Source of the DNA: Diabrotica undecimpunctata
Taxonomy: Eukaryota > Arthropoda > Insecta > Coleoptera > Chrysomelidae
Length of the DNA: 64,000 nucleotides
Direction of reading: 5' to 3'
Assembly: GCF_040954645.1 (NCBI RefSeq)
Contig: NC_092805.1
Location: 75,982,564 to 76,046,563 of the forward strand
Shown: positions 5,881 to 47,631 of the stretch, one piece after another
Layout of the letters: each line of letters opens with the position of its first letter
How positions within the stretch are numbered: position 1 is the stretch's first letter
Translations under genes and position numbers: made by a program
The notes under the pieces: model-generated
Seen by the model: only the letters and a program-made list of their open reading frames with translations
Databases searched by the model: none
Told to the model about the DNA's origin: nothing

Positions 5881-6109
5881 AGGATATATGGAGCCTAAAA
5901 TGATAGGATTTAAAGAAGATAATACGATAGTGGAGAGAAATTCAACATGGCTGCATCTAATAACACCTTAAACTGGCAGCAATAAAACGAATTTACGCAC
6001 AGAGGTATGTGGCATATTACGTGACAGAATTTATCAAATACCGTACGATTACTTCATACATCTCTTTGCATACGTCCACTTTTGGTTAACTACTTAGTAT
6101 GTATTCAGT

Positions 6110-7699: not shown

Positions 7700-7856
7700 A
7701 AAACAATTTTACTTATACAGGAACTATTATTGAGTAAAAACGTATTGTGGCTCAAGTGGCCTTATAGTATTGGAAGTCGTAAGTTGATAGTTTCCAGTAG
7801 AACGTTTTTATTGTTAATTACCTCCGTAAAAGTGAGTTATAGTATTTATAAAGAAA

Positions 7857-9510: not shown

Positions 9511-9514
<4 letters not shown>
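8204..9514. other. AT-rich 3' part of E1 copy 1
   Basis: No gene seen. The stretch is shared with copy 2 (31700-33178) and ends in the right terminus gatagtgggatg against the TA tract. Confidence 0.5.

Positions 9515-9608
<94 letters not shown>
9515..9608. repeat. (TA)n tract between E1 copy 1 and gypsy-1
   Basis: A long TA run with two small interruptions. E1 ends exactly on its left, and a truncated gypsy-1 gag piece starts on its right. Confidence 0.95.
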
Positions 9609-19015: not shown

Positions 19016-21230
19016 GTCATGTAATGCACCTGTGTCAATTTTGATACAACACTTTTTAAAAAAGTTTTAAATTAAATGTTTTATACCTACATACAAATGT
19101 TAAGTGTTTTACTTCTGTATAAAATTAAATTATTATTATATTTTATTTTTATAATTATTTTTTTATTTTTTATTGTTTTAGGCCTCTTTACCAGAATCAG
19201 CCAAAGCATTGTTTCAACGATTTTTAAAGGGTTCCAAATGTGCCAAATATTCTCCAGAATTAAGGTCATTTGCACTGACTTTAAATTTTTATTCAGCAAA
19301 AGCCTATGATTTTGTAAGAAGAGCTTTTAATAATTCATTACCACACCCATCAACCATAACAAAATGGTACCAAACTGTTGATGGTGCACCTGGATTTTCC
19401 AAAGAAGCTTTAAATGCTTTGAAAAACAAAGTTGAAGAAGCAGGGAAGCAAAATAAAACACTTGTGTGTAATTTAGTGCTGGATGAAATGTCTATTCGTA
19501 AGCAAGTGGAATGGGATGGAAAAAAATTTACTGGCTATGTAGATTTTGGTACAGATATAGAATCTGATAATGTACCAGAAGCAAAAGAGGCACTGGTGTT
19601 TATGTTAGTAGCCTTAAATGACAATTTTAAAGTGCCAGTTGCATATTTTTTAATTGACAGTTTTTGTGGATCAGAAAAAGCATCCTTAGTAAATCTTTGT
19701 TTAAATTTTATTTATGATTCAGGCATAAAAGTCTATTCATTAACTTTTGATGGTGCTGCCAACAATTTATCAATGGCCAATGCTTTAGGTGCTAAAATAT
19801 CTGCAACAAATATTGAGCCTTTTTTTCTACATCCAATAACTAAGGAGAAAGTTTTTATATTTTTAGATGCGTGCCACATGATTAAGTTGGTTCGTAATTG
19901 TATGGGTACATTTGTTTTGAGTAACGTAAAAAATGAAAAAATTGAATGGCAGTATTTAAAAAATCTTGTTGACTAGCAATATGATGAAAAATTACATTCT
20001 GCCAATAAATTGAGGTATCGCCATTTGAGATGGGGACAGGAAAAGATGAGGGTAAACTTAGCTGTTCAAACCCTAAGTAAAAGTGTGGCAGACGCTTTGA
20101 CATATTGTAACAAAGAAAAAAACTTTAGTCAATTTAAAAATTCAGAAGCTACTTCGGAATTTATCATGATTTTTAATAATTTATTTGATATATTTAATAG
20201 CATGACATATTATTCTAAATACTCGTTTAAAAATTCTTTAAATATTAATAATGAGAAGGAAACTTTTGAATATTTAAAAATGGCTGAGAGGTATATATGT
20301 GATTTAAAATTAAATGATATAAGTATCATATCTTCACAAAGAAAAGTGGGTTTTTTGGGTTTCATTTCAAATATCGCAAGTTTGAAAGGATTATTTAATC
20401 TTTTGGTTAAAGAAAAAAAATATTTAAAATATTTACTTTCTTACAAACTGTCGCAAGACCATTTAGAATTATTTTTTGGGGCTGTAAGGGGTAAAGGGGG
20501 TTATAACAATAATCCAACTGCTCGACAATTTGAGGCAGCTTTTAAAAGATTGCTTATTCACACAGAAATATCAGGACCTAATACAGGGAATGTTAAAAAT
20601 ATAAATAATGTTGGCATTTTAACCGCAACATCTGCACGACCTATTACTAGTTTAGTAAACATAGAAGAAAATTTAGAAGATTTTACACAAAAGACAACAA
20701 TTTTTTATGAGCATGACTATTTTCAAAAAGATGTTTTAAATTTAAGTGTTTATGTAGAAGATGTAATTGGATATATTTCTGGCTTTATAGTTAGAAATTT
20801 AAAAAAAATCATTAAATGTACAAAATGCATAATAATATTAGAAAGTGAAGAAACATTTTCAAAATTACAGTTAGTAAAACAATATAAAAATTTAACTAAT
20901 GCTTCGAATTTAGTTATAAAAATATGCAAGGAGGCAGAGAAAAATTTTAGAATGTATATAAACAAAATTGAAAGTAGTTCAAAAAATTTATTAAATAAAT
21001 TAATAAACGCCACAATGAATAATTTGCCTCGTGACATCATGGATAGTTTTGGTGATCACATTTATGACAGTGAACTACTCAACAATCATTGCATTCAATT
21101 ATTAAATTTAATTTTAAAAAAGTATTTCACGCTAAGACTTCATCATGAAGCCAAAAAAAAATTAGATGTAGATAGGCAGAATCGTATGAGAAGTTTGTTG
21201 ACTAAAAGGATACTGTTTAGACATGAATAG

Positions 21231-26555: not shown

Positions 26556-26942
26556 CTACTATCATTTTCGCATCGATACATTATGCTTTTACCATCACTT
26601 TAGCATCGTCTTGCAAAGTAGCATCTGTATATCGACGCTACTTTACAAGAATTTTAACCATCTCATTGATTAGAGTTTTGATACCGTGTTGGTATTTTAA
26701 AATATCCGCTTTCTCTTTTTATCCCTTACTGAGTTATATAAGTTTATTCCAGAAAATGTTTGAGTCTAAAATGATGGTACAGTGAAAATATTATATATAT
26801 TTAGTTCAGGGTTTTACCGTTTACTCGCTGCCATTATATACATGAAAATGTATATCCCACTTTCATTATCAATCATTTTAGCATCAGAAATTTGGCATCG
26901 CTGTTGAATATAATATTACCCACAACGAAATAGTAAATTTAA

Positions 26943-27062
<120 letters not shown>

Positions 27063-27114
27063 TATTTTTTTTTTTTTCATCCACAAATCATTTTGGCATC
27101 ATGTTTGGTTAAAA

Positions 27115-28190
27115 GTAACGGGGAACCTATTGTATCTTCGCTCCAATTCGTTTAGTCGCGACGTACAGCCCCTCAAATGATAGGATGTAACCAATAAAAT
27201 ACAATAAGACAGAAAAATCAAATATAGCAGCATGACAAAAAGGCCCTAATTATATATATTCGTTTCTATAAGTCCAATCGTGACGTACAGTATCTCAAAT
27301 GACAGGATTTAACCAATTGAAAACAATGAAATAAAAAAATAAATACAGCAACATGTCCAAAGGGCCGTAGTCACGTATCTTCGGTCCTATTAGTCCAATC
27401 GTGGCGTATAGTACCTCTAATGATAGGATTTAACATAAATAATACAATGGGATAGAAAAATCAAATGCAGAAAAATGTCAAAAGGGCCTTAGTTGTGTAT
27501 CTTTAGTTCTATTAGTCCAATCATGACGTGCAGTACCTCAAATGAAAGGATTTGACAAATATAATACAATGAGGTATAAAAATTAAATGGAATAGCATGT
27601 CAAAATGGCCTTAGTTATGTATCTTCGGTCCTATTAGTCCAATCGTGATGTACGATACCTCAAATGATAGCACTTAACCAATAGAATACAATGACATAGA
27701 AATCAAATACAGCATCACGTCAAAAGGGCCTTAGTTACGTATCTTCGTTTCTAGTGACCCAATCGTGACGTACAGTACCTCAAATAATAGGATTTAATCA
27801 ATCGAATACAATAAGATAGAAAAATAAAATACATCAGCTTGTCAAAAGGGCTTTAGTTATGTATCTATGGTCCTGTTAGTCCAATCGTGACGTTTCGTAC
27901 CTCAAATGATAGAATTTAACTAATAGAATACAATGAGATATAAAAATTAAATAGAGTAGCCTGGCAAAAGGGCCTTAGTTATCTATCTTCGATCCTATTA
28001 GTCCAATCATGACGTACAGTACCTCAAATGGTACAATTTAACCAATAGAATACTACGACGTAGAAATCAAATACATCAACACCAAAAGGACCTTAGGTAT
28101 ATATCTTTGCTCCTATATATGTTATGTCAAAAGAGCCTTAGTTGCGTATCTCCGGTCCTGTAGGTCTAATCATGACATATGGATCCTAAA
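27115..28190 (+). repeat. 122-bp tandem satellite array, about 8.5 monomers
   Basis: The landmark ccaatc recurs at 27273, 27394, 27516, 27639, 27759, 27881 and 28003, a spacing of 120-123 bp. The monomer sequence is that of the array at 4940-5880. Confidence 0.92.
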
Positions 28191-28399
28191 ATGATAGGAT
28201 TTAATGGAGATAATACGATAATACGATGGTGGAGAGAAATTAAACATGGCGGCGTCTAATAACACCTTAAACTGGCGGCAATAAAACGAATTAACGCACA
28301 GAAGTGTGTGGCATATTACGTGACAGAATTATTAGCGAATACCATACGATTACGTCATACATCTCTTTGCATACGTCCACTTTTAGTTAACTACTTACT

Positions 28400-28800
28400 A
28401 TGTATTCAGTACTTTGCTTTACGGTTGTTGAGGCATGGACTCTTAAACAGAAGAATGTTAAAAATCTTTCAAGCTTTGAGATATGGTGCTACCGCCGTAT
28501 ACTAAAAATAAGTTGGGTGGATAAAATTACAAATGAAGAGGTAATACGAAGAATAAATAACGATCCAGAAGTTATACTGAATATAAAAAAGAGAAAACTT
28601 GAATAGTTTGGCCACCTGATGAGAGGACAAAAGTACACATTCCTACAAAATATGATGCAAGGAAAAATCCAAGGACGCAGAAATCCAGGCCGTATAAGAA
28701 ATTTAAGAGAGTGGTTTGGCTGTACCACTAACGAATTATTCAAAACAGCAGTAAATAAAATTAGAATCGCCCTAATGATATCCAATCTCCGATAGGAGAG
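28400..28800 (+). pseudogene. LINE RT C-terminal remnant in E1 copy 2
   Basis: A cleaner copy of the piece at 6110-6470: VVEAWTLKQKNVKNL, MWCYRRILKIS-like text, TNEEVIRRINND, then after a stop FGHLMRGQKYTFLQNMMQG and RNPGRIRNLREWFG. These match the post-RT region of LINEs, with no catalytic motif. Confidence 0.72.
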
Positions 28801-29251
28801 GCACTCAAAGAAGAAGATATGATAAACTCGAAAAATCTCCAACGTTCACTGTTAGACATATGCCTCCCGTTTAGTGCACACATTTACTGCTCCTTGACGC
28901 TGTGACGAGAATGAGATAGGATTTAACAAATAGAATGACAAAAAACTAAACAAGACAGTGTGTCAAACGTGGAATGCGTCGCAGGACGTGAAATATTAGC
29001 GTAAAATTATATGATGGCCATAGACGGTTCTTTAATACCCAGCAAACGACTCGCTTTGTAAAGTTACATAGCAGGGATCTGTGCGAGAAAAAGTCGATCA
29101 TTCCTTTTATAACCCAAAGGGGACCATAAAATATTGAACGTTAAAATATGACATAATGTAACGGTATGACAAATCTTTTTTCTCCGGCATGTGCATGCCT
29201 GTGTACCTATACAACGGAAGTCGTGCATAACCTTTAAGTTGATCGTAATAC

Positions 29252-30345
29252 ATAACTACAACAACAAGTATGTTGACGACTTGGGTTAGTAAAAATAGTG
29301 CATTCCGTACGTTTTTTAAACGTGATTAGGAATTTGTTGACTGGAGGCTATTAAAGAAGTTCTTAAAATTTTTGCGGGTCACCGCCTTTTCTGTAAATGG
29401 AGTGAATATTGTTATCCATTTAATTTTTTTTCTCAGTTGAATAATTCCTGCTGGTATTTGGTCTAAGCTTACTACTTTTCCCCATTTAAGCTGTTTCATA
29501 GCTAATTCTACTTCCTCTTTATAGTGCCCTGTTCACCTGTTTTGGTAATTTCGGACTATTTCATCTCCTATAACATAAAACAGTTGTTTCAGATATCTTT
29601 ATCGCGTTTCCTTTTTTTATGGATGAATATGCTGTCGTTTTCATCTTCTACTATTTCATATGGAGCTACACGATTAACAATTCCAAATCAAGAAAACACA
29701 AATAACACTCCGAATTATATTATACAACTAATAGTCGAAAAATGAAGAGCAAGAGGTAGATAATCAGACAATAAAGATCAGCGCTATATGATGCACGCAA
29801 TGCCACATTTGAACACTACATTAGTATATTGTCTAAAGAAGATCATTCACTATGGATAGCAACAAAAACACTTAAAGATACCTGAACAGTACAACCCACC
29901 AATTAAGAAAGATGACGTTAGTTGAGGAAGATCAGACCAGGAAAAAATGTCAACATTTTCAGAATACCAGATAATAATAATCAAGCAATAGAACACTGAA
30001 AACTTTTGTTTTTAACTGTACGCCCGTAAATGACTTATTATTTTTTAAATAACACTTAATATTGCACTTTTTTATTGTATTTTTTCATCTTTCAAGATAA
30101 TTCTTATAGGAATATATTTATTTATAACATACGGTCTTATGGTCTTATTACGGCTTTAAGATTATACGACCTAAATGTATCTTGTACCGCACTGCTAATT
30201 GAGAATTATGTTTGTAATGCGATAAGAGGTCCGGATATACGAGACACCAGTGACTCATGCCGCACTGATAAAAATCCAACAGGAATCTGCATTTCTATAA
30301 AAAAATAGATTAATTTGTTTTGTGTATTAATTTAGTTTAGTTTAG
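29252..30345. mobile_element. Insertion specific to E1 copy 2, containing LINE scraps
   Basis: The copies match up to gatcgtaata and resume at agagttgcagtaaaag, so this block is an insertion here or a deletion in copy 1. On the minus strand at about 29340-29540 it shows EEVELAMKQLKWGKV...DQIPAGII, an RT palm entry motif. On the plus strand at about 29680-29980 it reads ISALYDARNATFEHYISIL...HSLWIATKTLK, like the Jockey-type linker before RT. Both are decayed. No TSD was found. Confidence 0.55.
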
Positions 30346-30379
30346 TCGAACAAGAGTTGCAGTAAAAGATTTTTCTAAA

Positions 30380-31175
30380 TATAGAATGTAAACCATATTT
30401 CCAATGCTTTGTGAAAGAGAACCAGTTTGTAATATTCCGGACGACGTAATAAAACCTTATTTTAGAATATTGGTCGATGAATTGAAATCATTGTTCAAGA
30501 AACGAATTATTCATGTGCAGATGTTTTACTCTAAAAACATGTAAAACCAAAATCTCGATTAAAAAAGTTGCAACCAGCTACTCACGATGAAACTTAACCC
30601 CATTATTGATTTTACAAGTGATAAAATGGTTCGACAAAAGACCAGTTTTAATCCTTACATTTAAACATAATAGTTGTATCTTGGTTTAATCAAATGAAAA
30701 GAAAAATTATATACAAGTACTAAAACCACAAACTATTCTCGATTATAACTTGGTGAAAAAGAGTGTTGATTTTAGTGATCAAGTGGCTTCTTACCAACGC
30801 CCAATACGCAAAATTCTGAAGTGGTACCGGAAAGTGGCAGTGGAATTAATATTTAATACCGCATTTAATACCGCAGTAGTCAATGCTTAGTTGCTAAATA
30901 ATAGAAAACGTAAAAAAAGCGACAACCTATCCTTGAGTTCAGACTGGAGTTCACGAAGGCATTTGCAATTAAAGAAATGTTGTAACCGTCACGACCAGTT
31001 ACACCCAAAAATACCATCTCAGGCAAAGCGGTGTAGATAATACAAAGAGAAGAAAGTGTACAAGATGTTACAACATTTTAAGAAGAAGCATGACTAGTAG
31101 AAAGCTAAAACATACTCTGAAGAATGTGATGGCAATACTGCAATATGTCTAGTGTGCTTAAATGAAGCACATTAA
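30380..31175 (+). pseudogene. piggyBac-like transposase C-terminal region (E1 copy 2)
   Basis: Same blocks as at 6900-7699, including ILDYNLVKKSVDFSDQ and RKILKWYRKVAVEL, with a small duplication near 30860 and more decay in the Cys-rich tail. Non-functional. Confidence 0.72.
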
Positions 31176-31330
31176 AAAATAATTTTACTTATACAGGAAC
31201 TATTATTGAGTAAAAACGTATTGTGCTTCAAGTGGCCTATAGTATTGGAAGTCGTAAGTTGATAGTTTCTTGTAGAACGTTTTTATTGTTAATTACCTCC
31301 GTAAAAGTGAGTTATAGTAATTATAAAAAG

Positions 31331-31700
31331 ATGGATGTAAATAATATGCCTTCGACATCTAAAAAAGCTAGATGTGAACATAAACGTAGATTGACTACTG
31401 CTGAATTACAATCATTGTTAGAAGCATCTGGCGAGGACGATGTAGATTAAATGAATGGTGGAAGTGACTCTGATTGACTCTGACGAAATATTTGCACAAA
31501 GTCGTTCAGAAAAATCGAGGATTGCGTTTTGGAAAGAGACAACACAAACAGAATTTAAGACTTTTCTCGGACTTATGTTCCATATTGGGACAATTAAGAT
31601 GAACCGTCTGAATGACTACTGGAAAAGTATGGGTAACTTCTATAATAGTGTTGACTTGACTAGATAATTGCTCATAGCCCATATTAAGAAATAAGCGAAT
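31331..31700 (+). pseudogene. piggyBac-like transposase N-terminal region (E1 copy 2)
   Basis: MDVNNMPSTSKKARCEHKRR, a stop at 31448, then SRIAFWKETTQTEFKTFLGL, MFHIGTIKMNRLNDYWKS and NSVDLTR. This keeps the piggyBac N-terminal catalytic-domain signature better than copy 1 and again follows the C-terminal piece. Confidence 0.75.
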
Positions 31701-33174
31701 AGACAATCCTCACTTGTCAAAGACACTGAAAAAACGTGAAGCGGTCTAAAAACTAAAAAGTCCCCTATTCAAACTGGTTTTTAATAAAAAATTTAATAAT
31801 ATGTTAAAGTTTTTTTAATATACCCTAAAACTGAAAGCGCAAACAATTGATTGCAAGTTACAAAATACTTGTACAGTCATACTGTTTGGACAAGTAAAGT
31901 TGTTTAAATAATCGCTTTCTGTCATAAACAAATTGAATAAATTGTAAAATATTTTTTGATCTGCTTGATATTTAGCACACTTTAATAACTCATCAATTGC
32001 CATAAGTTCAAGTAGCTATATTACCTGCCGTTAGGCAAAAAACAAAGTTATTAACATTTATAAATTACTACAAACATAATATCTTAGAGTTTACGGTTTT
32101 TTGGAATTATATCAATTATTTATGTATGTAAATTTGGTATTTTTGTACATAAAAAACTTTTTATTGTCTACAACTTTTATTTGAATTATTTTTCTTTAGA
32201 ATGTATACAAAACGTTTTATACGCAAAAAATTATTTTTTTTTGTCTTTAGAGATTGTTTAAAAAAACAAAGCAAAATCAACTGTACGTCTTTACGAATTT
32301 TTCGTCAGCTACCCCTCATACTATTTAGAATTTAAATTTCTGTATAAGATTTTTTTAAACTATTTAGCGAGGTTCCGTGAACTACTTTCTTATGGCATGG
32401 TCAAAGTCAAATATTATTTTTTTATGTGATTAAGCCACAATTATTGGTCGTTATTGAGATGAAAATTACATTTTTAATTAACTAATATTTAACGTTTTGA
32501 TTTCCACTATTATTTTGCAATAACTTTGTTTATTGTACTAATTATGTAAACATATACACATAATGTGTATACACATTTTGTACAGAAAAACGTTTTTTGA
32601 GAACGATTTCCGGAATGAAAATCAAAATTTTAAACATTAACACAATCACAACCAATAATTAAGGCCTTAATTCCATAAAACCATAATATTTATCTCAAAC
32701 TATTCATCGATAGCTTCGACTAAACAGGTTGTAAATTGAAATTTATGTAAAATATTCCCCTACACGATTCTCTGGGCAAAAATATCTAGGTTGATTAAAT
32801 ATAACATCTAAACGAAGAAAAAAACCTGTCGAGACTGCAACTTGTGAGCAGATAGTTTCAATGTCGTTATTCGAACTTGAACCAAACCGATCGATATTTA
32901 GGTATCTAAAATATTATTTTAAGGAGTAATACCGGCAACATCTGTTGGCTCTTAAATGATGCCAAATACAGTGATTTTAATGCTCGATGTTAAAACGTAG
33001 GTTTGATGTAAAAAAATAAATATATAAAAAAATCGGAATATTGAAAAACCGACAACAGTGCCAAGCCTACAAAGGTGCCCTAAACGAACATACACAATTT
33101 ATAAATAGAAAATGATAGCAATTCTTGGTGATGCTAAATTACTGCAACGTGAAAAGAGTTCAAATGGATAGTGG

Positions 33175-33178
<4 letters not shown>
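31701..33178. other. AT-rich 3' part of E1 copy 2
   Basis: No gene seen. It is shared with 8204-9514 apart from a 165-bp extra block at about 32296-32462 that I do not recognise. Confidence 0.5.

Positions 33179-33242
<64 letters not shown>
33179..33242. repeat. (TA)n tract between E1 copy 2 and the P-like non-autonomous element
   Basis: A perfect TA run. E1 ends gggatg on its left; TTGTTATG starts on its right. Confidence 0.95.

Positions 33243-34705: not shown

Positions 34706-34712
<7 letters not shown>
33243..34712. mobile_element. Non-autonomous relative of the P-like transposon
   Basis: About 1.47 kb without a supported ORF. Ends are TTGTTATGCTATT (left) and, on the opposite strand, TTGTTGTACTTTTG (right). 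Internal blocks match the 10.3-kb P-like element: cgggatag near 33435, attgactgacctt near 33744, and on the opposite strand cgggcatataa and tttgcggtgg. This suggests a deletion derivative mobilised by the same transposase. Both sides abut TA tracts. Confidence 0.6.

Positions 34713-34783
<71 letters not shown>
34713..34783. repeat. (TA)n tract, breakpoint of gypsy-2
   Basis: A perfect TA run; gypsy-2 begins inside gag directly after it. Confidence 0.95.
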
Positions 34784-34785
<2 letters not shown>

Positions 34786-35220
34786 GTTTTGGATGGGTTG
34801 GAGTCAATAAAAGGGCTATTGGTTAACTATTGAAGCAGTTTGAAGCAGATGTTGCTCGTATAGTGCGGTTGACTTATCCGGAGGTACCAGACAACATTTT
34901 GGTAGAAATTGCTGTAGATACCTTCGTCAATGGGTTAAAAGAAAGTGAATTACAGAGTGCTTTACGACTAGCAAGACCGACAGTTCTAGATGAAGCGCTC
35001 GCTATTGCCTTGGAACATGAAACAGCTAGTCAAACTTCAGGGAGCCATCGAGTAAGAACCATCTAAGAAGGCGACGAACCAAACGATGAACGTCTGGAAG
35101 AAATGGTACGAAAAATAGTTCGTAACACGATGCCAAAGAGACGCGAGCCCAGATGTTGGAATTGTGGTGACGTAGGTCACATTCGCGCTAATTGCAAGAA
35201 AATTATACAACAGTCGGAAA
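34784..35220 (+). pseudogene. gypsy-2 gag C-terminal part with CCHC zinc knuckle
   Basis: The frame reads LKQFEADVARIVRLTYPEVP, then TFVNGLKESELQSALRLARP, the end of a retrotransposon gag capsid domain. A stop at 35064 interrupts it; beyond this is the nucleocapsid knuckle CWNCGDVGHIRANC (C-x2-C-x4-H-x4-C, 35154-35195). The N-terminal half is lost at the TA tract. Confidence 0.8.
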
Positions 35221-35370
35221 ACTAGAACGGGTCGACATCAAGGGGCAACTGCCGACCTCGAGAAATACAGCCCCCATAGTAACTGTGAACATTACGTCCT
35301 CCGGTGGAATTCATAGCTTGTACATCGAGGGTCGTATCAATAATAAATGTAGATCGTTTTTGGTAGATAC

Positions 35371-36333
35371 TACTACTAAGGATTTCCACAGTTTTCACTG
35401 TCTTCCTTCACTCAACCGTTTTCTCCAATTTTCCCTGTCATTCCAGTCACCATCTCGCAGGGTTCTTTTCTCCATAGCCTCGTTGATTTCATCTCTGAAT
35501 GACCTTCGGGGTCTTCCTCTCTTTCTTCTTCCAATCGGGCTCCATTCTGTGATTTTGTTTATCCAGCGTCCTCTGTCCGCTCTTCTGACGTGGCCGTACC
35601 AGGATAGTCTCTTCTCCTCTATATAGTCAATTATGTCTGATTGCACTCCCATTCTCCGCTTAATCTCTGCGTTTTCAATTCTGTCTCTTTTTGTAAGTCT
35701 ACAGCTTCTCCTCAGGAACTCCATTTCTACTGCTCTTATTCTACCTCTATTTCTCTTGTTTGTTGTCCAGTTTTCGGACCCATATGTCAGGATACTTCTT
35801 GTCAGGGTATTATATATTCTCTTTTTTGTCTTTATCGTAATGTTCTTATCCCACAACACTGAGTTTAGTTGTCTTATACAGTTTCTTGTTTGTCTCAGTG
35901 TGTTGTTTATATCTTCTTCTGTTGTTCCCTGGTTCGATATTATGGTTCCTAAATACTTGAATTTATCTGTTCCATTTACTTGTCTTCCCTCGTCTATCTC
36001 TAGGTTTCTCATATCCTTGTTTTCTGTTGTTAGGTATTCGGTTTTCTCTAAGTTTATTTCCATTCCGTTGGTTTTATATTCTTCTTTTAGTTTTCTGAGC
36101 ATAAAGCTGAGATCTTCTTCATCTTATGCGATGACTACTTGATCGTCGGCAAAACTTAAGGTGTATAGGTATTCGTCTCTTACTGGTATGCCCATTCCTT
36201 CGCACTTTCTCCTCCATGGTTTGAGTGTCTTTTCCAAGAATATTTTAAACAGAGTAGGGGACGTAGCACAGCCTTGTAGAAGTCCTTTTGTCGTCTTAAA
36301 TGGATTGTAGGCTTTATTTCCACATTTAATAGC
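35371..36333 (-). mobile_element. 5'-truncated LINE inserted in the gypsy-2 protease
   Basis: A perfect 13-bp TSD ttttggtagatac flanks it (35358-35370 and 36334-36346). The minus strand encodes the end of an RT: LLQGCATSPTLFKIFLEKTL, then LSFADDQVVIA (motif C, F-A-D-D), KYLGTIISNQGTTEEDIN, LTYGSENWTTNKRN and LSWYGHVRRADRGRW. The 3' end is a short TAGTAGTA tail with no poly(A). One stop after the motif C segment splits the frame. The insert is a typical 5'-truncated copy. Confidence 0.88.
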
Positions 36334-36346
36334 TTTTGGTAGATAC

Positions 36347-36576
36347 AGGTGCAAAAAGAACTATTGCACGGCCAGAAGTAGTACGAGGCCATCTTAAATT
36401 ATCGCCTGCAACAGTAAAGCTTAGAACAGCAACTGGTGAGATGATTAATACATATGACAAGGCTAATATGTCAGTATCCATTGGCCAGACCACAGTGAAA
36501 CATAGAGTATTAATTGCAGAGATCTCCGACGAGTTCATATTGGGGATGGATTTACTAGGGAAAGTTGGGCTGTATT
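36347..36576 (+). pseudogene. gypsy-2 aspartic protease (main part)
   Basis: The frame continues the LVDT of the left flank with GAKRTIARPEVV, then MSVSIGQTTVKHRVLIAEIS and FILGMDLLGKVGLY. D-T-G-A is the active site and I-L-G-M-D-L-L the flap-side block of gypsy proteases. The LINE entered at the active-site codons, so the gene is broken. Confidence 0.82.
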
Positions 36577-36900
36577 GAATGTCAAAGATGGAGTTCTCGA
36601 GATCTGTGGTGAAGAGTTGCCGTTCCATAAATACAAAGAAGATGTTATCAGCTTAATAACTACTTTTGACGTAACGATACCTGGTAATAGTGAGAAAATT
36701 TTGATGACCAGACCTGATGGTTACTGGGAAGTTTAAGGATGGTGGAAGATGTGAATAATGCCGAGTTCCTAACGGCAAAAGCTTTGGTGAGAATTCGAGA
36801 TGTCGTTCCTGTAAGAGTTAAGAATTTAAAGGGAACTGCTATTAAGTTAAGTAAAAGAACTTTAATCGGACAGTGTGTTCCCGTGGCTTAGATTTGTTTA

Positions 36901-38625
36901 ATGAATACTAATGAGAAACCGTCGAAATCTAAGTATCCAAAGGAGCTTGTTGAAACGATGATTAAAACGTGCCAAGATCTTGATGATGAACGAACTAAAA
37001 AAGTGAAGTCTATGCTGATAGAATTTCAAAATGTTTTTGCCATGGATAAGAATGATAATGGCAAAACAAGCATAGTAAAGCATAAAATTAATACCGGAGA
37101 CGCTCAGCCAATCAGACAACAACCTAGACGACTTCCATTTGCGAAAAGAGATGAAGCCGAAGACATCATCAAAGATATGAACAAACAAGGGGTAATTGAA
37201 CCATCAAACAGTCCATGGACATCACCAGTAGTGCTAGTAAAGAAGAAAGATGGTTCAACACGTTTTTGTATTGACTACCGACAGCTCAATCCGGTAACTA
37301 AAAAAGATAGTTATCCTTTGCCCAGAATAGACGATACTTTGGATACACTTTCTGGTTCTCGTTGGTTCTCTACACTCGATCTGAAAAGTGGATATTGGCA
37401 AGTAGACATGGAGCCAGCTGATCGTGAAAAAACCGCATTCTCGATAGGATCAGGGCTTTGGCAGTTCACAGTTATGCCCTTTGGTTTATGTATGGTTATG
37501 AATTTGAAGTTAAGTCCAAAGAAATGTCACTTGTTTCGACGAGAAGTGAAGTACTTGAAACATATTGTAGCAAGTAATGGTGTAACAGCTGATCCTGAAA
37601 AACTTGCAGCAATTAAGGATTAGCCAGTACCAAGAGATAAACACGATATTAGAAGCTTTCTTGGCCTATGTACATATTACCGACGTTTTGTCAAAGGATT
37701 TGCCAACATCTCCAAGCCATTAACAAAGTTGCCAGAAGAAGGCAAAGAATATACATGGAGCGAAGAGTATCAAATAGCTTTCGAACACTTACAAATGGCT
37801 CTGACCACCGTACCGATTTTAAGGTACCCTAGACAGGCAGGAAAATTTGTGTTGGACACCGATGCAAGCAACAGTGCAATAGGAGCTGTTCTCTCCCAAA
37901 TCCAAGATGGACAGGAGAAAGTTATCGCTTACTTGAGCAAAGTCTTGTCGAAACCAGAAAGAAACTATTGCGTTACCAGGAGAGAATTGCTAGGCGTAGT
38001 ATAGGCTTGCGAGCATTTCCATAAATACTTGTTTGACAAAAAGTTTCTTCTTCGCATGAATCACGCTGCTCTAAAATGGCTCCTACAATGCCGTAATCCA
38101 GAGGGCCAGATGGTAAGATGGTTAAAACGATTACAAGAATATGATTACGAGATCGAACACAGGGCTGGCAGAGTTCATTCAAATGCTGATGCTCTTTCGA
38201 GACGGCCGTGTAGTGCAAATTGTAATCACTGTCTTAAATTAGAAGAACGACTTTGCCCCGTGAGACGAACCACCGTCATTAATGATCAATGGCAGCCTCA
38301 ACAGCTACAAGACGCTCAAGCAGATGATCCATGTATAAAAAGAGTATTGGATTGGATGCGTCGAAGTGAAAGACCTTCTTGGCAAGACATTAGTGCATGT
38401 AGTCCAGAAGTCAAGTGTTACTGGAGCCAATGGAATTGCCTAGTGCTGAAAGATGATCTTCTGTATAGAACCTTTGAGACCGATGATGGTACAGAAACTA
38501 AGCTTCAGTTGATTGTACCTAAAAGTAAAGTGTCAAAAGTTTTGCGTCAGTTGCATGACGGTGCATCAGGTGGACACTTTGGTATTACGAAGACTTTGCA
38601 AAAGGTTCGAGAACGGTTCTATTAG
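36901..38625 (+). pseudogene. gypsy-2 reverse transcriptase and RNase H, catalytic motif deleted
   Basis: Motifs run SPVVLVKKKDGSTRFCIDYR, WFSTLDLKSGYWQV and WQFTVMPFGL, then jump directly to NLKLSPKKCHLFRREVKYL. The roughly 80-residue stretch that should hold the catalytic Y-L-D-D is missing, although the frame stays open. A connection domain (SFLGLCTYYRRFVKGF) and RNase H (LDTDASNSAIGAVLSQ, NHAALKWLL) follow. Stops occur at 37621, 38002 and 38623. The RT cannot be active. Confidence 0.88.
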
Positions 38626-39303
38626 GTGAACTGTAAAGATGATGTAAGAAGATGGTGCCGGAAATGTGAACTGTGTGCAACCAGTAATGGTCCAGTTGGT
38701 AAAAAGAGGGCACCCATGAAACAGTACAATGTTGGTAGTCAAATGGAAAGAGTAGCAATCGACATTGCAGGTCCACTTCCAGAGACGAATGATGGAAATA
38801 AATATATCCTGGTAGCTATGCATTATTTTATAAAGAGGCCTACGCGATACCAAATCAAGAAGCTGCTACCGTTGCAGAGGTACTTGTTAAAGAATTCTTC
38901 AGCCGATTTGGTGTTCCTTTGGAGATCCACTCCGACCAAGGGCGAAATTGCGAGTCAACCCTTTTCCAAAACGTTTGTAAATTGATTGGTGTCAATAAGA
39001 CCAGAACGACACCCCTGCATCCTCAATCAGATGGAATGGTCGAGAGGATGAACCGAACGATGGGTAAACACCTGTTCAAAGTTGTATAAGAACATCAAAG
39101 AGATTGGGACCAGCACATTCATTTATTCCTAATGGCCTACCGCTCGGCCGTGAATGAAACTACAAGCCAGACTTCAACCTGCCTGATGTTAGGTCGTGAA
39201 GGTCGTTTGCCCTGCAACCAAGAGTTCGGCTGCAGACCTTCCGAAGAACATGTTGCAAGCGAAGATTATGTCGACCGCCTGAAGTTAAGAATGAATAACA
39301 TTC
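38515..39303 (+). pseudogene. gypsy-2 integrase zinc finger and core, frameshifted
   Basis: The HHCC finger spans LHDGASGGHFGITKTLQKV (H/H) and CRKCELC (C/C), with a stop at 38623 between. The core has D in AIDIAGPLPE, then, after a frameshift near 38838, D in HSDQGRN and E in VERMNR, the D-D-E triad. A stop near 39087 follows, then FLMAYRSAVNETTSQTSTCL and LGREGRLP. The enzyme was a normal gypsy integrase before decay. Confidence 0.85.
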
Positions 39304-40227
39304 ATGAACTTAGCCAGTGACAGAATGAAAGATCAATATGATTCTCGATGCAAGAATGAAAGCTATGAAGTAGGTGATCTTGTTTGGCTTTATAATCCAC
39401 AACGTCGCCGAGGATTGTCTCCCAAATTGCAAAGACAAAGGAAAGGTCCGTATGAAATTAAAAAGAGAATAAATGACGTAATATACCGAATTAAGAAGTT
39501 GCCGAAAGGTAAACCAAAAGTAGTTCACATAAATCGTCTTGCACCATATGCTGGCTCCAATGAAACAGAAGAAGCACGAACCCTTCAACATGAGATCAAA
39601 GATGACCGGCGACCAAGCTTTAATGAATTTATGTCAAATTACGCAGACAGAAAGAGTGCTAGATTCGGCGTGACGACAGAAGTTCAGCAGGATCTTTTAA
39701 GTGTTCCGCATAACGTCTCTCTAGCCCACTGTGTTGCCCAAGATCTTAAGATGACTAAAGGAATCTCATCTGTATTTTATAAAAAGTTCGGTCATTTTAA
39801 CGAGTTGAAAAATCAACAGCCTAAAGTTGGAAGAGTACTGAGATTAGAAGATGGCCCTCGATCTTTGCTGTATATGATGACCAGGAAGTCGTATACAGAC
39901 AGGGCAAGCTACGAGGATATATTGCGTGCTCTAACTAATTTGAAGAAAATCGTGTGTAATTATGACATCAAGAATTTGGCCTTACCCAAGATAGGCCATG
40001 CACTAGATAATCTGGATTGGAAGATTGTCAGAAGCATGCTTGAAGTGATCTTCCGAGAAACCGGCGTAATAATTACTGTGTGTTGCATTAATCCGAAGAG
40101 ATCGTGTCCTCCAAAGACAGTGGACTGTTATTTCTTTCTGAGAGGTTCATGCAGAGCTGGAGAGTCCTGTAGATTCCGCCATCCTGGGCCTACATATAGA
40201 GTTACTGATCGGGACGCTCAGATTTAA
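39304..40227 (+). CDS. Integrase C-terminus fused to a TARG1/OARD1-like macrodomain and a CCCH zinc finger
   Basis: An open 307-codon ORF at the end of gypsy-2 pol. Residues about 24-62 (GDLVWLYNP, GPYEIKKRINDVIYRI) form the SH3-like integrase tail. Residues about 120-260 match the TARG1/OARD1 class of ADP-ribose-binding macrodomains: SLAHCVAQDLKMTKGISSVF, ELKNQQPKVGRVLRL, LALPKIGHALDNLDW and ITVCC. The Asp of G-x-x-L-D (residue 235) fits the catalytic Asp of TARG1. By-eye alignment puts Arg194 (MMTRKS) where human TARG1 has catalytic Lys84. Residues 275-293 form a C-x7-C-x5-C-x3-H finger. The stop is 11 bp before the LTR, so these domains are inside the element. The upstream frame is broken, so expression from this copy is doubtful. 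Confidence 0.85.
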   Translation: MNLASDRMKDQYDSRCKNESYEVGDLVWLYNPQRRRGLSPKLQRQRKGPYEIKKRINDVIYRIKKLPKGKPKVVHINRLAPYAGSNETEEARTLQHEIKDDRRPSFNEFMSNYADRKSARFGVTTEVQQDLLSVPHNVSLAHCVAQDLKMTKGISSVFYKKFGHFNELKNQQPKVGRVLRLEDGPRSLLYMMTRKSYTDRASYEDILRALTNLKKIVCNYDIKNLALPKIGHALDNLDWKIVRSMLEVIFRETGVIITVCCINPKRSCPPKTVDCYFFLRGSCRAGESCRFRHPGPTYRVTDRDAQI

Positions 40228-40238
40228 GAGGAGAGCAG
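40227..40238 (+). promoter_or_regulatory. Polypurine tract of gypsy-2
   Basis: The purine-rich agaggagagcag lies between the stop of the macrodomain ORF and the LTR start TGTTAC. Confidence 0.7.
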
Positions 40239-40518
40239 TGTTACAAACATGCTTTCGGCATGGCCCATATAACGGTTGGAACTCTAAAAAGGCATTAAGA
40301 ACATTCGCGATGTATCGAGTGCGAGGTAGAACAACACGTCACGTAGGCGAATTAGAGGTGGGACTACTCCAGTATATTCTCGAACATAATAGTTTTGGTA
40401 TATATATGTAACGATGTTAGGAGTAAGTTTTAGTTGATAAGAGAGTACCGAACTGTAAACTTATAAATAAATATATTTATATAAATTCGAACCGCTCGTT
40501 TTATTTAATCTCGCTACA
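40239..40518 (+). repeat. gypsy-2 3' LTR, 280 bp
   Basis: It starts TGTTACAAACATGC after a polypurine tract and ends CTCGCTACA, that is TG...CA. A TA-rich core-promoter-like stretch (tggtatatatatgtaacg) and an aataaa-containing stretch near its end fit LTR layout. No 5' partner is in the window. Confidence 0.82.
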
Positions 40519-41958: not shown

Positions 41959-42288
41959 GAGAACAAAAAAGAAAGAAAAAAAAAGAAGAAGAAGAAAAAG
42001 AAACAAAAGACAAGAAGATGGGTAGTTAGCAACGGTAACTCAGTTACTCAACGCAACCAGAGGCGAATACTAACTACCAAGATGGGCATTTGGTCACAGT
42101 AACTCAACTACTCAACGCAGCCAGAGGTGAAAACCAAATGCCAGGACAGGGATTCACGTCCAACAGCTCAGAACACTAACGCGTCGAGAGGCAGGGAGTG
42201 AATCCGACGATTACTCCGCTACCGCTCTATTTATAGTCGCGGTGACCTGTCGTGTCGGGACGTATCGGCACACTCCGTGGCGCGAACG

Positions 42289-44786
42289 TCAAGAAGCGCG
42301 CGCTGGCCAATCATGTGGCTGCATCGTGGTAGCGGGACCGGACGGCGGCTCTAGACTGGGATTCCAGATGGGAGACAAGTAGTATCCTTCCTCTCGATTG
42401 ATATTATGTGGATTTTTTCGGATCTCTAGAGATTCGCGGATTTTCCTGGAATAAAAGAAGGGGCTCTTAGAAATGATATGAGTTTTTTCGAACAATATGG
42501 AATGACCGGTTTCTTGGCAGTGTTCTGCAACTGCAGAATGGGAGAAAAGACCTGATCGAATGCATCTTTGATGCTCTTGAATCCGAGTTTTGACGGAACG
42601 ACCAGTTTCGCCAATATACACTTGTCCACATGAACAAGGAATAGAATAGACACCACAGGAAGATAGGGGCGGTAATGGGTCCTTAGGAGAGGGTAGATAT
42701 TGTGAGATTTTCTTGGGTGGTCGAAAAGTAGTCCTGATACCTTCCTTGCGAAGAATTTTGCCAATCCTATCAGTGACACTTCGAATATACGGAAGAAAAG
42801 CCACCGGAGTATTACCCGAAGATTCTGAATTTGTCGTCCTAGGGTGTAAAGGGGGATGTAGATGTCGGTGTGTAATATTTTGAATTGTGGACTTGGAGTA
42901 ACCGTTGGCGACAAGGGTTTTTTGCAGATGGCCAAGTTCTTCTCTAAGGTTGTCAGGTTCAGAAATCGAAATGGCCCGATGGATGAGAGAGTTGATCACA
43001 GAATTCTTTTGGGCAGGATGGTGGTGTGATGAAGCATGTAGGTAACGATTCGTGTGAGTCTTTTTTCTATAAACAGAGTGACCCAATCGGCCATTGGGCT
43101 TGGAGGTGACTAACACATCGAGAAAGGGAAGGGACCGATTATTTTCTACTTCCATTGTGAATTTTATACTCGGATGTTGTGAGTTAAGATGATCTAGGAA
43201 GGGAGAAAGGGTATGTTGACCATGGGGCCAGATGATAAATGTATCATCAACGTAGCGGAACCAGACTTTTGGTTTTAAGGGGTAAGATTCTAGGGCTAAA
43301 GACTCAAAGGCTTCCATGAAAATGTCAGCAATGACAGGGGAAGGGGAGAACCCATTGGTGTTCCAGATATTTGTTTGTAGAAATTGCCTCTAAAAGAAAA
43401 ATATGTTGAAAGGAGGCATTTTTCCGCAAGATCTGCCAAAACCAAAGACTTGTTATCATTGGTCAAGTGATCTCGCAGAACAACTAGAGAGTCATGAATG
43501 GGGATATTAGTAAATAGGGATGATACATCGAAACTGACGAGGATGTCTTGGGGATCGACCGTGAGGGAGGAGATTAAGGTGATGAAATGTGTGGAATTTC
43601 GGACATAAGAAGAGGTACGACCAGTATAGGTCTTAAACTGATTCGACAAGTACTTTGCGAGTTTGTAGGTAGGAGAGTTAATCGTAGTCACAATGGGACG
43701 AAGAGGTATGTTGTCTTTATGGATTTTGGGAAGACCGTAAATTCTGGGGCAGATGGAGTTTTTCGGAACTATGGACTTCTTAACATCATCGGAAAGATCG
43801 GATTGTTTGATGGCATGGGAAATTTCGCGTTCGACTCTAGGAGTGGGGTCTCGAGAAATTGTGTTATAACAGGATGTATCCCTAAGTAAGTCGTTTACTT
43901 TCTCTATGTAGGAAGGAGTATCCAGGATGACTGTGGCATTACCTTTGTCTGCAGGAAGGATTATTATCTCAGAAAGAGAACGGAGATTTTTGAGAGCTAT
44001 GAATTCCTCACGAGATATATTGGAAGTAGGGATTTTGGCTGTATCAAGACATTTAGCGACGTCAAAGCGGATACGGTCGGCTGGAATTTTAGGAATTGTG
44101 CGGAGTGCCGCTTCCACATTTGAAACTATTTCTTCGGTAGGAATTCTGGAAGGAGTGATAGCAAAATTAAGACCTTTAGATAGAAGACTGCTTTCTGCAC
44201 TTGTTAATTGGTGAGAAGAAAGATTAACGACGGTGTTATTAAGAGGTGAAAGAGAAGTAGAAGTGGTGGAATGTGATTTTTTCTTAGATACAAGGGATTG
44301 GAATTTCTTTTTGTGAGTTTCGTTGCTTAGAAGAAGGATTTTATCGGCTTGATGATAGGAAATGCGGTCTAAAAGTGACCAATCATCGACACTAAGAATA
44401 CTGGAAAGTTCAAGATGCAGCTTAAAAAGTTTTTGGGATTGAAAATTAAGGGTTTTTCGAATATGTTGAATCCGTTCACGAAGTAGAGATAGGCTGGCTC
44501 GATGTAGAATTCGGGAAGAAGATGAAGAGGAAATGTGATGTTTTAGAACAAGAAAATTGGGAACCAAGTTATTATCACGACATCTAGAGAGGAAGGTGAG
44601 CGAAGAAAGTAGAGATGAAACTTTAGAGCGAAGATTGGAGAACTCTGAGGTTTTGCGGAATATAACCTCCCCGTAGAGGTTGGTCAAATGAAATCGTAGG
44701 CTTCCACGGCCAGAGTCAGAATTATAGTTTATTCGTCTTCCGGGTTTGGACCGTGTCATTTGTGAGTGACCCAAAAGTGGGTTCAT
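42289..44786 (-). pseudogene. PLE RT-GIY-YIG protein, minus copy, one-base frameshift
   Basis: The frame opens at ATG 44786 (MNPLLGHSQM...) and matches the plus copy from LKHHISSSSSSRIL on. Its RT has FDVSSLFTNIP (motif A) and GTPMGSPL (motif B). One T missing from a pyrimidine run at about 43347 then shifts the frame before YVDDTFIIW (motif C). The second half (43317-42289) carries motif C and the GIY-YIG domain intact. Apart from that base the two copies look almost identical. Its N-terminus is about 50 residues longer than the plus copy's, so it probably shows the native start. Confidence 0.9.
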
Positions 44787-45005: not shown

Positions 45006-47303
45006 ATGCCAGGACAGGGATTCACGTCCAACAGCTCTAAAGTTCTAAAACATCACATTTCCTCTTCATCTTCTTCCCGAATTCTACATCGAGCCAGCCT
45101 ATCTCTACTTCGTGAACGGATTCAACATATTCGAAAAACCCTTAATTTTCAATCCCAAAAACTTTTTAAGCTGCATCTTGAACTTTCCAGTATTCTTAGT
45201 GTCGATGATTGGTCACTTTTAGACCGCATTTCCTATCATCAAGCCGATAAAATCCTTCTTCTAAGCAACGAAACTCACAAAAAGAAATTCCAATCCCTTG
45301 TATCTAAGAAAAAATCACATTCCACCACTTCTACTTCTCTTTCACCTCTTAATAACACCGTCGTTAATCTTTCTTCTCACCAATTAACAAGTGCAGAAAG
45401 CAGTCTTCTATCTAAAGGTCTTAATTTTGCTATCACTCCTTCCAGAATTCCTACCGAAGAAATAGTTTCAAATGTGGAAGCGGCACTCCGCACAATTCCT
45501 AAAATTCCAGCCGACCGTATCCGCTTTGACGTCGCTAAATGTCTTGATACAGCCAAAATCCCTACTTCCAATATATCTCGTGAGGAATTCATAGCTCTCA
45601 AAAATCTCCGTTCTCTTTCTGAGATAATAATCCTTCCTGCAGACAAAGGTAATGCCACAGTCATCCTGGATACTCCTTCCTACATAGAGAAAGTAAACGA
45701 CTTACTTAGGGATACATCCTGTTATAACACAATTTCTCGAGACCCCACTCCTAGAGTCGAACGCGAAATTTCCCATGCCATCAAACAATCCGATCTTTCC
45801 GATGATGTTAAGAAGTCCATAGTTCCGAAAAACTCCATCTGCCCCAGAATTTACGGTCTTCCCAAAATCCATAAAGACAACATACCTCTTCGTCCCATTG
45901 TGACTACGATTAACTCTCCTACCTACAAACTCGCAAAGTACTTGTCGAATCAGTTTAAGACCTATACTGGTCGTACCTCTTCTTATGTCCGAAATTCCAC
46001 ACATTTCATCACCTTAATCTCCTCCCTCACGGTCGATCCCCAAGACATCCTCGTCAGTTTCGATGTATCATCCCTATTTACTAATATCCCCATTCATGAC
46101 TCTCTAGTTGTTCTGCGAGATCACTTGACCAATGATAACAAGTCTTTGGTTTTGGCAGATCTTGCGGAAAAATGCCTCCTTTCAACATATTTTTCTTTTA
46201 GAGGCAATTTCTACAAACAAATATCTGGAACACCAATGGGTTCTCCCCTTTCCCCTGTCATTGCTGACATTTTCATGGAAGCCTTTGAGTCTTTAGCCCT
46301 AGAATCTTACCCCTTAAAACCAAAAGTCTGGTTCCGCTACGTTGATGATACATTTATCATCTGGCCCCATGGTCAACATACCCTTTCTCCCTTCCTAGAT
46401 CATCTTAACTCACAACATCCGAGTATAAAATTCACAATGGAAGTAGAAAATAATCGGTCCCTTCCCTTTCTCGATGTGTTAGTCACCTCCAAGCCCAATG
46501 GCCGATTGGGTCACTCTGTTTATAGAAAAAAGACTCACACGAATCGTTACCTACATGCTTCATCACACCACCATCCTGCCCAAAAGAATTCTGTGATCAA
46601 CTCTCTCATCCATCGGGCCATTTCGATTTCTGAACCTGACAACCTTAGAGAAGAACTTGGCCATCTGCAAAAAACCCTTGTCGCCAACGGTTACTCCAAG
46701 TCCACAATTCAAAATATTACACACCGACATCTACATCCCCCTTTACACCCTAGGACGACAAATTCAGAATCTTCGGGTAATACTCCGGTGGCTTTTCTTC
46801 CGTATATTCGAAGTGTCACTGATAGGATTGGCAAAATTCTTCGCAAGGAAGGTATCAGGACTACTTTTCGACCACCCAAGAAAATCTCACAATATCTACC
46901 CTCTCCTAAGGACCCATTACCGCCCCTATCTTCCTGTGGTGTCTATTCTATTCCTTGTTCATGTGGACAAGTGTATATTGGCGAAACTGGTCGTTCCGTC
47001 AAAACTCGGATTCAAGAGCATCAAAGATGCATTCGATCAGGTCTTTTCTCCCATTCTGCAGTTGCAGAACACTGCCAAGAAACCGGTCATTCCATATTGT
47101 TCGAAAAAACTCATATCATTTCTAAGAGCCCCTTCTTTTATTCCAGGAAAATCCGCGAATCTCTAGAGATCCGAAAAAATCCACATAATATCAATCGAGA
47201 GGAAGGATACTACTTGTCTCCCATCTGGAATCCCAGTCTAGAGCCGCCGTCCGGTCCCGCTACCACGATGCAGCCACATGATTGGCCAGCGCGCGCTTCT
47301 TGA
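45006..47303 (+). CDS. PLE protein: reverse transcriptase with GIY-YIG endonuclease, plus copy
   Basis: One open frame of 765 codons from ATG 45006; the frame is open without ATG from 44958. RT motifs are FDVSSLFTNIPIHDSLVVL (A), GTPMGSPLSPVIADIF (B) and YVDDTFIIW (C), telomerase-related in style. The C-terminal nuclease reads CGVYSIPCSCGQVYIGETGR, then RIQEHQRC and HCQETGHSILF, with the PLE Cys-x-Cys insertion. Residues before LKHHIS come from the terminal repeat rather than the native N-terminus, so this copy is 5'-truncated and fused. It may still be catalytically competent. Confidence 0.92.
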   Translation: MPGQGFTSNSSKVLKHHISSSSSSRILHRASLSLLRERIQHIRKTLNFQSQKLFKLHLELSSILSVDDWSLLDRISYHQADKILLLSNETHKKKFQSLVSKKKSHSTTSTSLSPLNNTVVNLSSHQLTSAESSLLSKGLNFAITPSRIPTEEIVSNVEAALRTIPKIPADRIRFDVAKCLDTAKIPTSNISREEFIALKNLRSLSEIIILPADKGNATVILDTPSYIEKVNDLLRDTSCYNTISRDPTPRVEREISHAIKQSDLSDDVKKSIVPKNSICPRIYGLPKIHKDNIPLRPIVTTINSPTYKLAKYLSNQFKTYTGRTSSYVRNSTHFITLISSLTVDPQDILVSFDVSSLFTNIPIHDSLVVLRDHLTNDNKSLVLADLAEKCLLSTYFSFRGNFYKQISGTPMGSPLSPVIADIFMEAFESLALESYPLKPKVWFRYVDDTFIIWPHGQHTLSPFLDHLNSQHPSIKFTMEVENNRSLPFLDVLVTSKPNGRLGHSVYRKKTHTNRYLHASSHHHPAQKNSVINSLIHRAISISEPDNLREELGHLQKTLVANGYSKSTIQNITHRHLHPPLHPRTTNSESSGNTPVAFLPYIRSVTDRIGKILRKEGIRTTFRPPKKISQYLPSPKDPLPPLSSCGVYSIPCSCGQVYIGETGRSVKTRIQEHQRCIRSGLFSHSAVAEHCQETGHSILFEKTHIISKSPFFYSRKIRESLEIRKNPHNINREEGYYLSPIWNPSLEPPSGPATTMQPHDWPARAS

Positions 47304-47344
47304 CGTTCGCGCCACGGAGTGTGCCGATACGTCCCGACACGACA

Positions 47345-47370
47345 GGTCACCGCGACTATAAATAGAGCGG
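47345..47370 (+). promoter_or_regulatory. TATA box in the PLE terminal repeat
   Basis: actataaatagagcgg in a GC-rich setting downstream of the ORF, with a mirrored copy near 42225-42240. It is a strong core-promoter match. It probably drives the next tandem unit in PLE arrays. Confidence 0.6.
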
Positions 47371-47631
47371 TAGCGGAGTAATCGTCGGATTCACTCCCTG
47401 CCTCTCGACGCGTTAGTGTTCTGAGCTGTTGGACGTGAATCCCTGTCCTGGCATTTGGTTTTCACCTCTGGCTGCGTTGAGTAGTTGAGTTACTGTGACC
47501 AAATGCCCATCTTGGTAGTTAGTATTCGCCTCTGGTTGCGTTGAGTAACTGAGTTACCGTTGCTAACTACCCATCTTCTTGTCTTTTGTTTCTTTTTCTT
47601 CTTCTTCTTTTTTTTCTTTCTTTTTGTTCTC

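Follow-up and report, generated by a model that had tools for sequence, protein, structure and literature searches.

In chromoviruses, a chromodomain that reads histone methylation lies directly after the GPY/SH3 module of the integrase (IN), and some Ty3/gypsy integrases choose their sites via a C-terminal histone-methylation reader. We describe here a Ty3/gypsy-type element found in a stretch of 64,000 nucleotides from Diabrotica undecimpunctata (the window, meaning that whole stretch), whose integrase is followed by a macrodomain and a CCCH zinc finger. The element is like chromoviruses in having an extra C-terminal domain in the equal place, of a class able to read a chromatin mark, but the domain and the mark are different, and a chromodomain was absent among the Pfam matches of the tail, both for the window ORF and for another genomic copy (L124). 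Its LTRs, purine tract, 4-bp flank duplications, gag, PR-RT-RH-IN order and lack of room for env are those of Ty3/gypsy elements, whereas the macrodomain and CCCH finger after IN and the SAP domain at the start of gag are not.

The nearest precedent that we found is that of the epsilon-like endogenous retroviruses of fish, in some of which macro-domain ORFs occur (Basta et al. 2009, cited in the excerpts of PMC4977317). In a comparison made by description only, as those excerpts give it, the fish retroviruses also have a macrodomain in a reverse-transcribing element, but they carry it in additional ORFs, whereas the element described here has a C-terminal integrase fusion, of the TARG1 class and without the catalytic lysine. 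Retrotransposon fusions of a different domain, TRADD-N, are described in the excerpts of PMC8195603. No integrase-macrodomain fusion was found in a search that covered open-licence papers by title, opening of the abstract and selected excerpts.

The reference for the macrodomain is human TARG1/OARD1 (C6orf130), of the ALC1-type macrodomain clade. According to the excerpts of PMC6397177, K84 of TARG1 serves as the nucleophile and D125 as the residue that resolves the intermediate; the adenosine is contacted by D20, L21, F22, I44, L47, P118, Y150 and L152, the GxG loop holds the phosphates, and the distal ribose lies at H32, C33, S35, T83 and D125. The published pattern of TARG1 is TKx(30,35)Px[IL]GxGxD (PMC6397177, same excerpts). 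Human TARG1 stands alone, with K84 and GxG, whereas the domain of the element is fused to an integrase and has an arginine and GxA at these places.

Structure of the window copy

The copy of the element in the window (Table 1) is a dead fragment. Its upstream part and 5' LTR are lost, its left border, the exact position of which is uncertain, adjoins an (AT)n tract at about 34712-34784, and a second LTR is absent from the 64-kb window. The foreign insert that splits the protease is flanked by a 13-bp direct repeat (35358-35370 and 36334-36346). A minus-strand ORF at 35395-36102 of this insert is non-LTR-retroelement-like, by eye only. The RT-RH-IN region contains in-frame stops at 37621, 38002 and 38623, and the YxDD stretch of RT is missing, YLDD being present in all 28 other copies that have that piece. 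The frame of pol changes near 38829 and reverts at some point within 39215-39304. The ATG at 39304 is simply the first to follow the frameshift, and in intact copies the frame that it opens is the end of pol. Verification against other genomic copies upheld the 3' LTR call, and the distance of 11 bp between the stop of the ORF and the LTR, given in the initial annotation, is correct (the stop ends at 40227 and the LTR starts at 40239). Scans for Rfam families and for tRNAs found none in the window.

Because the open ORF in the window copy proves little alone, other copies were required. A length of 921 open bases in a decayed copy was judged unremarkable; a chance ORF is nevertheless ruled out by the domain matches and by the family-wide conservation.

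Table 1. Features of the element copy in the window (positions of the window; residues are those of the 307-codon ORF)
Feature	Position	Strand	Basis
Element 5' remnant: gag end with one CCHC knuckle and protease start	34790..35370	+	read from sequence
Foreign insert, 0.96 kb, splitting the protease	35371..36333	-	sequence
Remaining aspartic protease domain	36334..36578	+	Pfam gag-asp_proteas 1.2e-07
RT, RNase H, IN start	36901..38828	+	Pfam RVT_1 2.3e-18; tblastn with other gypsy pol of the window
IN core, different frame, stop at 39087	38829..39290	+	tblastn, stop list
ORF, 307 codons	39304..40227	+	ORF list, sequence
IN C-terminal SH3 / GPY-type module	39304..39549	+	residues 1-82; Pfam Integrase_p58_C, SH3_Tf2-1
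Linker	39550..39654	+	residues 83-117; dN/dS about 1
TARG1-like macrodomain	39655..40089	+	residues 118-262
C-terminal stretch with CCCH zinc finger	40090..40224	+	Pfam zf-CCCH
Purine-rich tract GAGGAGAGCAG between stop and LTR	40228..40238	+	sequence
3' LTR, 280 bp, TGTTACA...CTCGCTACA, then ATAC	40239..40518	+	sequence; LTR ends and flank type match those of other copies

Domains of the 307-codon ORF

The initial annotation had read this ORF as the SH3 tail of the integrase joined to a TARG1/OARD1-like macrodomain and a CCCH finger, and Pfam, phmmer against PDB sequences, BLASTP and Foldseek together bear this out. The Pfam search placed Integrase_p58_C at residues 48-81 (47.2 bits, E 2.4e-12, cut-off 27), SH3_Tf2-1 at residues 24-82 (31.9 bits, E 1.4e-07, cut-off 30) and zf-CCCH at residues 270-294 (27.4 bits, cut-off 20.5). 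The IN tail alone gave a best E of 0.049 against PDB sequences. The domain searches for the macrodomain were divided: residues 124-260 matched human TARG1/OARD1 with an E of 3.2e-26 (phmmer against PDB sequences), but the Pfam Macro model reached 15.3 bits on the window copy, under its cut-off of 22, and for the tail of copy L124 it was absent from the matches at E 0.01. That same tail matched TARG1 at 6.9e-28 among PDB sequences. The identity of the macrodomain was settled by the PDB sequence search. BLASTP gave an identity of 39% with human TARG1 over 135 residues, ungapped.

When AlphaFold2 was run on the full ORF as a single sequence, the result was uninformative (pLDDT 33.7). With an alignment of 47 prokaryotic relatives (47 of 80 GTDB loci), the macrodomain was modelled with a pLDDT of 80-98, as 10-residue block means, while the CCCH end of the same model of the window ORF had a pLDDT of about 34, so that only the macrodomain counts as modelled. 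Foldseek with this macrodomain model ranked TARG1 (4j5s) first, with an E of 1.2e-15 and a TM of 0.96 by target length, followed by DarG (7.5e-11); the fold is thus common to the element domain and TARG1. The macrodomains of DarG and of alphavirus nsP3 are structural neighbours, with 12-22% identity among the matches listed, but they belong to other fusions.

The ligands of the CCCH finger are C275, C283, C289 and H293, in the spacing C-x7-C-x5-C-x3-H that the initial annotation had given, and each of them is conserved in 54 or 55 of the 55 copies read. The best PDB match of the finger, CPSF4 / CPSF30, is weak (E 1.2e-4).

Distribution and anatomy of the family

The genome carrying the window (1.74 Gb) gave 8414 first-look candidates, of which the best 129, ranked by likeness to the window copy, were scored; these 129 places are a lower bound and a non-random sample. 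All 129 cover the ORF, starting at residue 3 or before it and ending at residue 307, with an identity of 91-93% to the window ORF (100% at its own place). The same order of domains was found at 129 of 129 scored places, which supports the fusion as a part of the element. These places rule out a chimera as well as a one-off junction, the conclusion that the initial annotation would have drawn had no other copy carried the fusion. The ORF stretch was stop-free at 121 of them, and the open frames measured 1413-1414 codons in 40, 1850-1857 codons in seven and at least 1000 codons in 69 of the 129 places. Fifty-five places were read per residue, namely the 30 best-ranked (L090-L119) and 25 picked for their long open frames among L120-L149, the remaining five of which repeat L103, L107, L108, L116 and L117. 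A stop in the tail was present in four of the 55.

Ten elements were fetched with both LTRs, all picked for long frames (1129-1857 codons), a choice that biases their youth upward. Each of the ten has an LTR pair and matching 4-bp flanks, those of L123, L126 and L128 being AT repeats and uninformative. The two LTRs were identical over 269-284 bp in nine of the ten elements, and the pair of L129 showed two mismatches and gaps. The purine tract reads AAGAGGGGAGCAG in eight of the ten long copies; for L120 and L125 the analysis returned another repeat. Among the 55 places, the middle bases of the 3' flank were TA (NTAN) in all 52 readable flanks, the first four bases being ATAT in 20, ATAC in 10, GTAT in eight, ATAA in six and others in eight.

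The order of the element in the genomic copies is LTR, gag, pol. A pol frame of 1414 codons, overlapping gag by about 30 bases in a different frame, was found in six of the ten fetched copies, and gag and pol formed one frame of 1857 codons in three; L127, which is shortened internally, has a frame of 1129 codons. The end of the pol frame is separated from the 3' LTR of the fetched copies by 14 bases, stop codon included, which leaves no room for env after pol. Pfam searches with the pieces of L124 as separate queries returned SAP and Retrotrans_gag for gag, followed by protease, RVT_1, RNase H, H2C2 and rve, and SH3 and CCCH for the tail. DTGA accompanies YLDD in 28 of 28 copies with that piece. 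Of the 53 copies with the IN piece, all have HHCC, 51 have DDE and nine carry a stop in this piece. The element is a young, high-copy Ty3/gypsy-type family with recent activity, and the arrangement of IN SH3, macrodomain and CCCH finger is shown to be a family trait, present in long open pol frames with identical LTRs.

Several other observations concern gag and the LTRs. A SAP domain, which is a DNA-binding module, stands at the start of gag in all six copies examined (L120, L121, L124, L125, L128 and L129), with Pfam scores of 26.7-29.0 bits for a cut-off of 23.9, and the match is absent from both other gypsy gags of the window; we know of no SAP domain in a gypsy Gag. The separate gag frames varied from 419 to 478 codons among six copies, and internal gag repeats were seen in L120 (2139-2569), L121 (2293-2563) and L125 (2174-2529). 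With two gag-pol arrangements in one family, the use of frameshifting may vary within the family. Two types of LTR start, TGTTACAAA and TGTAACGAA, occur among the closely related copies L120-L129, possibly by LTR exchange between subfamilies.

Selection on the macrodomain

The mean pairwise dN/dS of the macrodomain was 0.134 over 55 places. That of the enzymatic regions was 0.184 for PR/RT (24 copies), 0.095 for RT/RH (25 copies) and 0.103 for IN (53 copies), and that of the other parts of the tail, over 55 places each, was 0.144 for IN-SH3, 1.01 for the linker and 0.434 for the CCCH end. When only changes common to at least three copies were counted, the macrodomain showed 26 synonymous and six nonsynonymous changes (ratio 0.065, binomial p 1.9e-12), compared with 35 and four for IN, one and six for the linker, and seven and 13 for the CCCH end, respectively. 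As a stretch, the CCCH end showed no significant constraint over the 55 places (p 0.15).

Two groups of places with common 3' flanks are likely segmental duplicates (L093, L096 and L102; L105, L106 and L119), and four of these six were dropped in a repeat of the test. Without them (51 places), the dN/dS of the macrodomain was 0.132 with the same 26 and six changes, and the counts were 31 and two for IN and zero and four for the linker. The duplicate filter also dropped the non-duplicated L120-L123 from the RT pieces, which left 24 of 28 copies for PR/RT and 25 of 29 for RT/RH. Like the RT and IN enzymes, the macrodomain is under purifying selection, whereas the adjoining linker is not. Purifying selection across copies had been raised in the initial annotation, and the dN/dS of about 0.13 agrees with it.

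Active-site and ADP-ribose contact residues

Fourteen of the binding-site residues named in the excerpts of PMC6397177, a set that leaves L152 outside, were scored in the 55 copies. Nine of these 14 ADP-ribose contacts are kept: D20, L21, H32, C33, I44, T83 and G121 are invariant over the 55 copies, and F22 and P118 are each found in all but one. Together with the fold and the ungapped identity, they are what the domain has in common with human TARG1. Four are changed: S35A in 52 of 55, L47V and Y150C in 55 of 55, and G123 to alanine in 54 and to valine in one. The GxG loop reads GHA in 54 copies and GHV in one. Position 125 is an aspartate in 42 and a glutamate in 13 of the 55, or 42 and nine of 51 after the likely duplicates were dropped. 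G41 is replaced by a threonine in all 55. The window copy itself has R194 for K84, GHA for the GxG loop and D235 for D125.

The catalytic K84 of TARG1 is replaced by an arginine in 55 of 55 copies, with the codon AGG in 54 and AGA in one. The next residue, 85, is a lysine in 40 copies and an arginine in 15, and those 15 are without lysine at either 84 or 85. With the K84R substitution and the change of GxG to GxA, the element copies do not fit the published TARG1 pattern. Among 89 relatives from prokaryotes, plasmids and phages, position 84 is a lysine in 88 and an alignment gap in the other one; these 89 are 88 distinct sequences, L007 and L012 being one plasmid. The counts of D125 and G123 in the 80 GTDB relatives are biased, these residues being part of the search pattern; K84 lies outside the pattern. 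Arginine in all copies and lysine in nearly all relatives make the arginine at 84 a fixed trait of the sampled family. A decay of the window copy alone is thereby ruled out as the source of K84R, and a catalytic TARG1 hydrolase is rejected. The word hydrolase in the initial annotation is not supported, in view of K84R, the GHA loop and the D125E of 13 copies.

Because the nucleophilic lysine is fixed as arginine and most of the binding residues are kept, we infer that the macrodomain binds ADP-ribose without cleavage by the TARG1 route. Its affinity for ADP-ribose may also be lost, given the four changed contacts and D125E, and an arginine at 84 could in principle support other chemistry. The shared amino-acid polymorphisms of the macrodomain are six, of which five are located at or near the active site, at TARG1 positions 35, 42, 85, 90 and 125, and the sixth at position 75.

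Relatives and origin of the macrodomain

A tree was made of 87 macrodomains, including 85 of the 89 relatives (L009, L073, L077 and L089, with a stop in the matched stretch, were left out). The element groups in it with human TARG1, the sole animal TARG1 included, with a support of 0.84 and on a branch of 1.28, followed by two phage sequences and one bacterial sequence. In a tree that holds one animal TARG1, this placement would suit descent from some animal TARG1-like gene. Scans of IMG/VR with the ORF and with A1 gave no relative, and neither did a first scan of GTDB.

Stand-alone TARG1-like macrodomains with the TK motif were observed in six phages (L001-L006: LpeD, G, LC76P1, LP65, FNU3 and an uncultured phage). 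Four of the six are annotated as hypothetical or without a function name and one as O-acetyl-ADP-ribose deacetylase 1-like, and one record is unannotated.

Proposed function and alternatives

The integrase-macrodomain-CCCH fusion is, with high confidence, family-wide and selected. At the end of pol, the integrase carries two extra C-terminal modules, the TARG1-class macrodomain and the CCCH finger. We propose that the macrodomain would act as an ADP-ribose reader, much like the chromodomain of chromoviruses, to which we liken it because its position after the SH3 module of IN coincides. Such a reader would tether the integration complex to ADP-ribosylated chromatin or proteins, for example at sites of PARP activity, and the CCCH finger would contact RNA of the element or of the host. 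Guidance of integration, one of the uses suggested in the initial annotation, is thus the reading preferred here. As a whole this is the best explanation that we have, and we hold it tentatively, with slightly more doubt than belief. It is rather unlikely that a non-catalytic ex-TARG1 module steers or licenses integration at ADP-ribosylated, repair-active chromatin with the assistance of the Gag SAP and of an RNA-binding Pol finger. The NTAN preference of the flanks is neither for nor against a reader, as it says nothing of chromatin.

Another use of the domain in a mobile element would be to counter ADP-ribosylation by the host, by masking or removing the ADP-ribose that silencing or defence factors set on the RNA, protein or chromatin of the element. 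In mammals, SIRT6 mono-ADP-ribosylates KAP1 and so silences L1 (excerpts of PMC4695847); alphavirus macrodomains are among the structural neighbours in Foldseek, selection keeps the macrodomain in this element, and the position of five of the six shared polymorphisms, in the active-site loops or close to them, could be the mark of an arms race. The selection over the entire macrodomain is purifying, however, the fusion to the integrase favours a role at integration, and the loss of the catalytic lysine in 55 of 55 copies makes removal by the TARG1 mechanism unlikely, so that we consider such a countermeasure improbable. An enzyme that does without the lysine, through other chemistry or with a different substrate, for instance ADP-ribosylated nucleic acid, is very doubtful: the GxG loop is changed, G41T is found in 55 and S35A in 52 of 55 copies, and D125E alters the acid resolving the intermediate in 13, even though D or E occupies position 125 in all 55, T83, H32 and C33 are kept, and a related macrodomain subclass is active with a glutamine at the lysine position (excerpts of PMC9967889).

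The adenosine pocket, with D20, L21, F22, I44 and P118 kept in 54-55 of 55 copies, argues against the view that the macrodomain now serves the polyprotein only in structure or protein interaction and no longer has a function in ADP-ribose biology. The long branch of the macrodomain (1.28) would agree with such a role. So would the 26 columns that are invariant, or almost so, in an alignment of 11 sequences: the window copy departs at seven of them and the family at six, F22 being lost only in the window copy. The probability of this alternative is low. An accidental fusion in a single decayed copy, or an artefact of the assembly, could be imagined from the window copy alone, which is dead and without a second LTR, but with 129 places in the same order, identical LTR pairs and matching flanks its probability is next to nil.

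If the ADP-ribose reader proposed here is real, the integrase carries it where related elements have a histone reader, and a selected, catalytically altered macrodomain at this place would link transposition to ADP-ribose signalling, a main DNA-damage mark. The element also provides a naturally occurring TARG1-type domain that selection retains in the absence of the catalytic lysine, in which reader and eraser can be told apart by direct test, and it raises the question of a conflict between mobile elements and silencing or defence based on ADP-ribosylation.

Other features of the window

Three further features were noted in the window. A palindrome has inverted arms of about 2.6 kb at 41967-44549 and 45042-47625, reported as 100% complementary, around a centre of 492 bp, with an RT-like ORF in one arm; it is either an artefact of the assembly or a fold-back duplication of recent date. 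About 5 kb of sequence (4519-9519), with a 122-bp tandem array inside, recur 22-24 kb further on (26643-33183), most pieces being 85-99% identical. A remnant of a P-element-type transposase, in two ORFs with TNP-like domains in Pfam, lies at 19209-21230.
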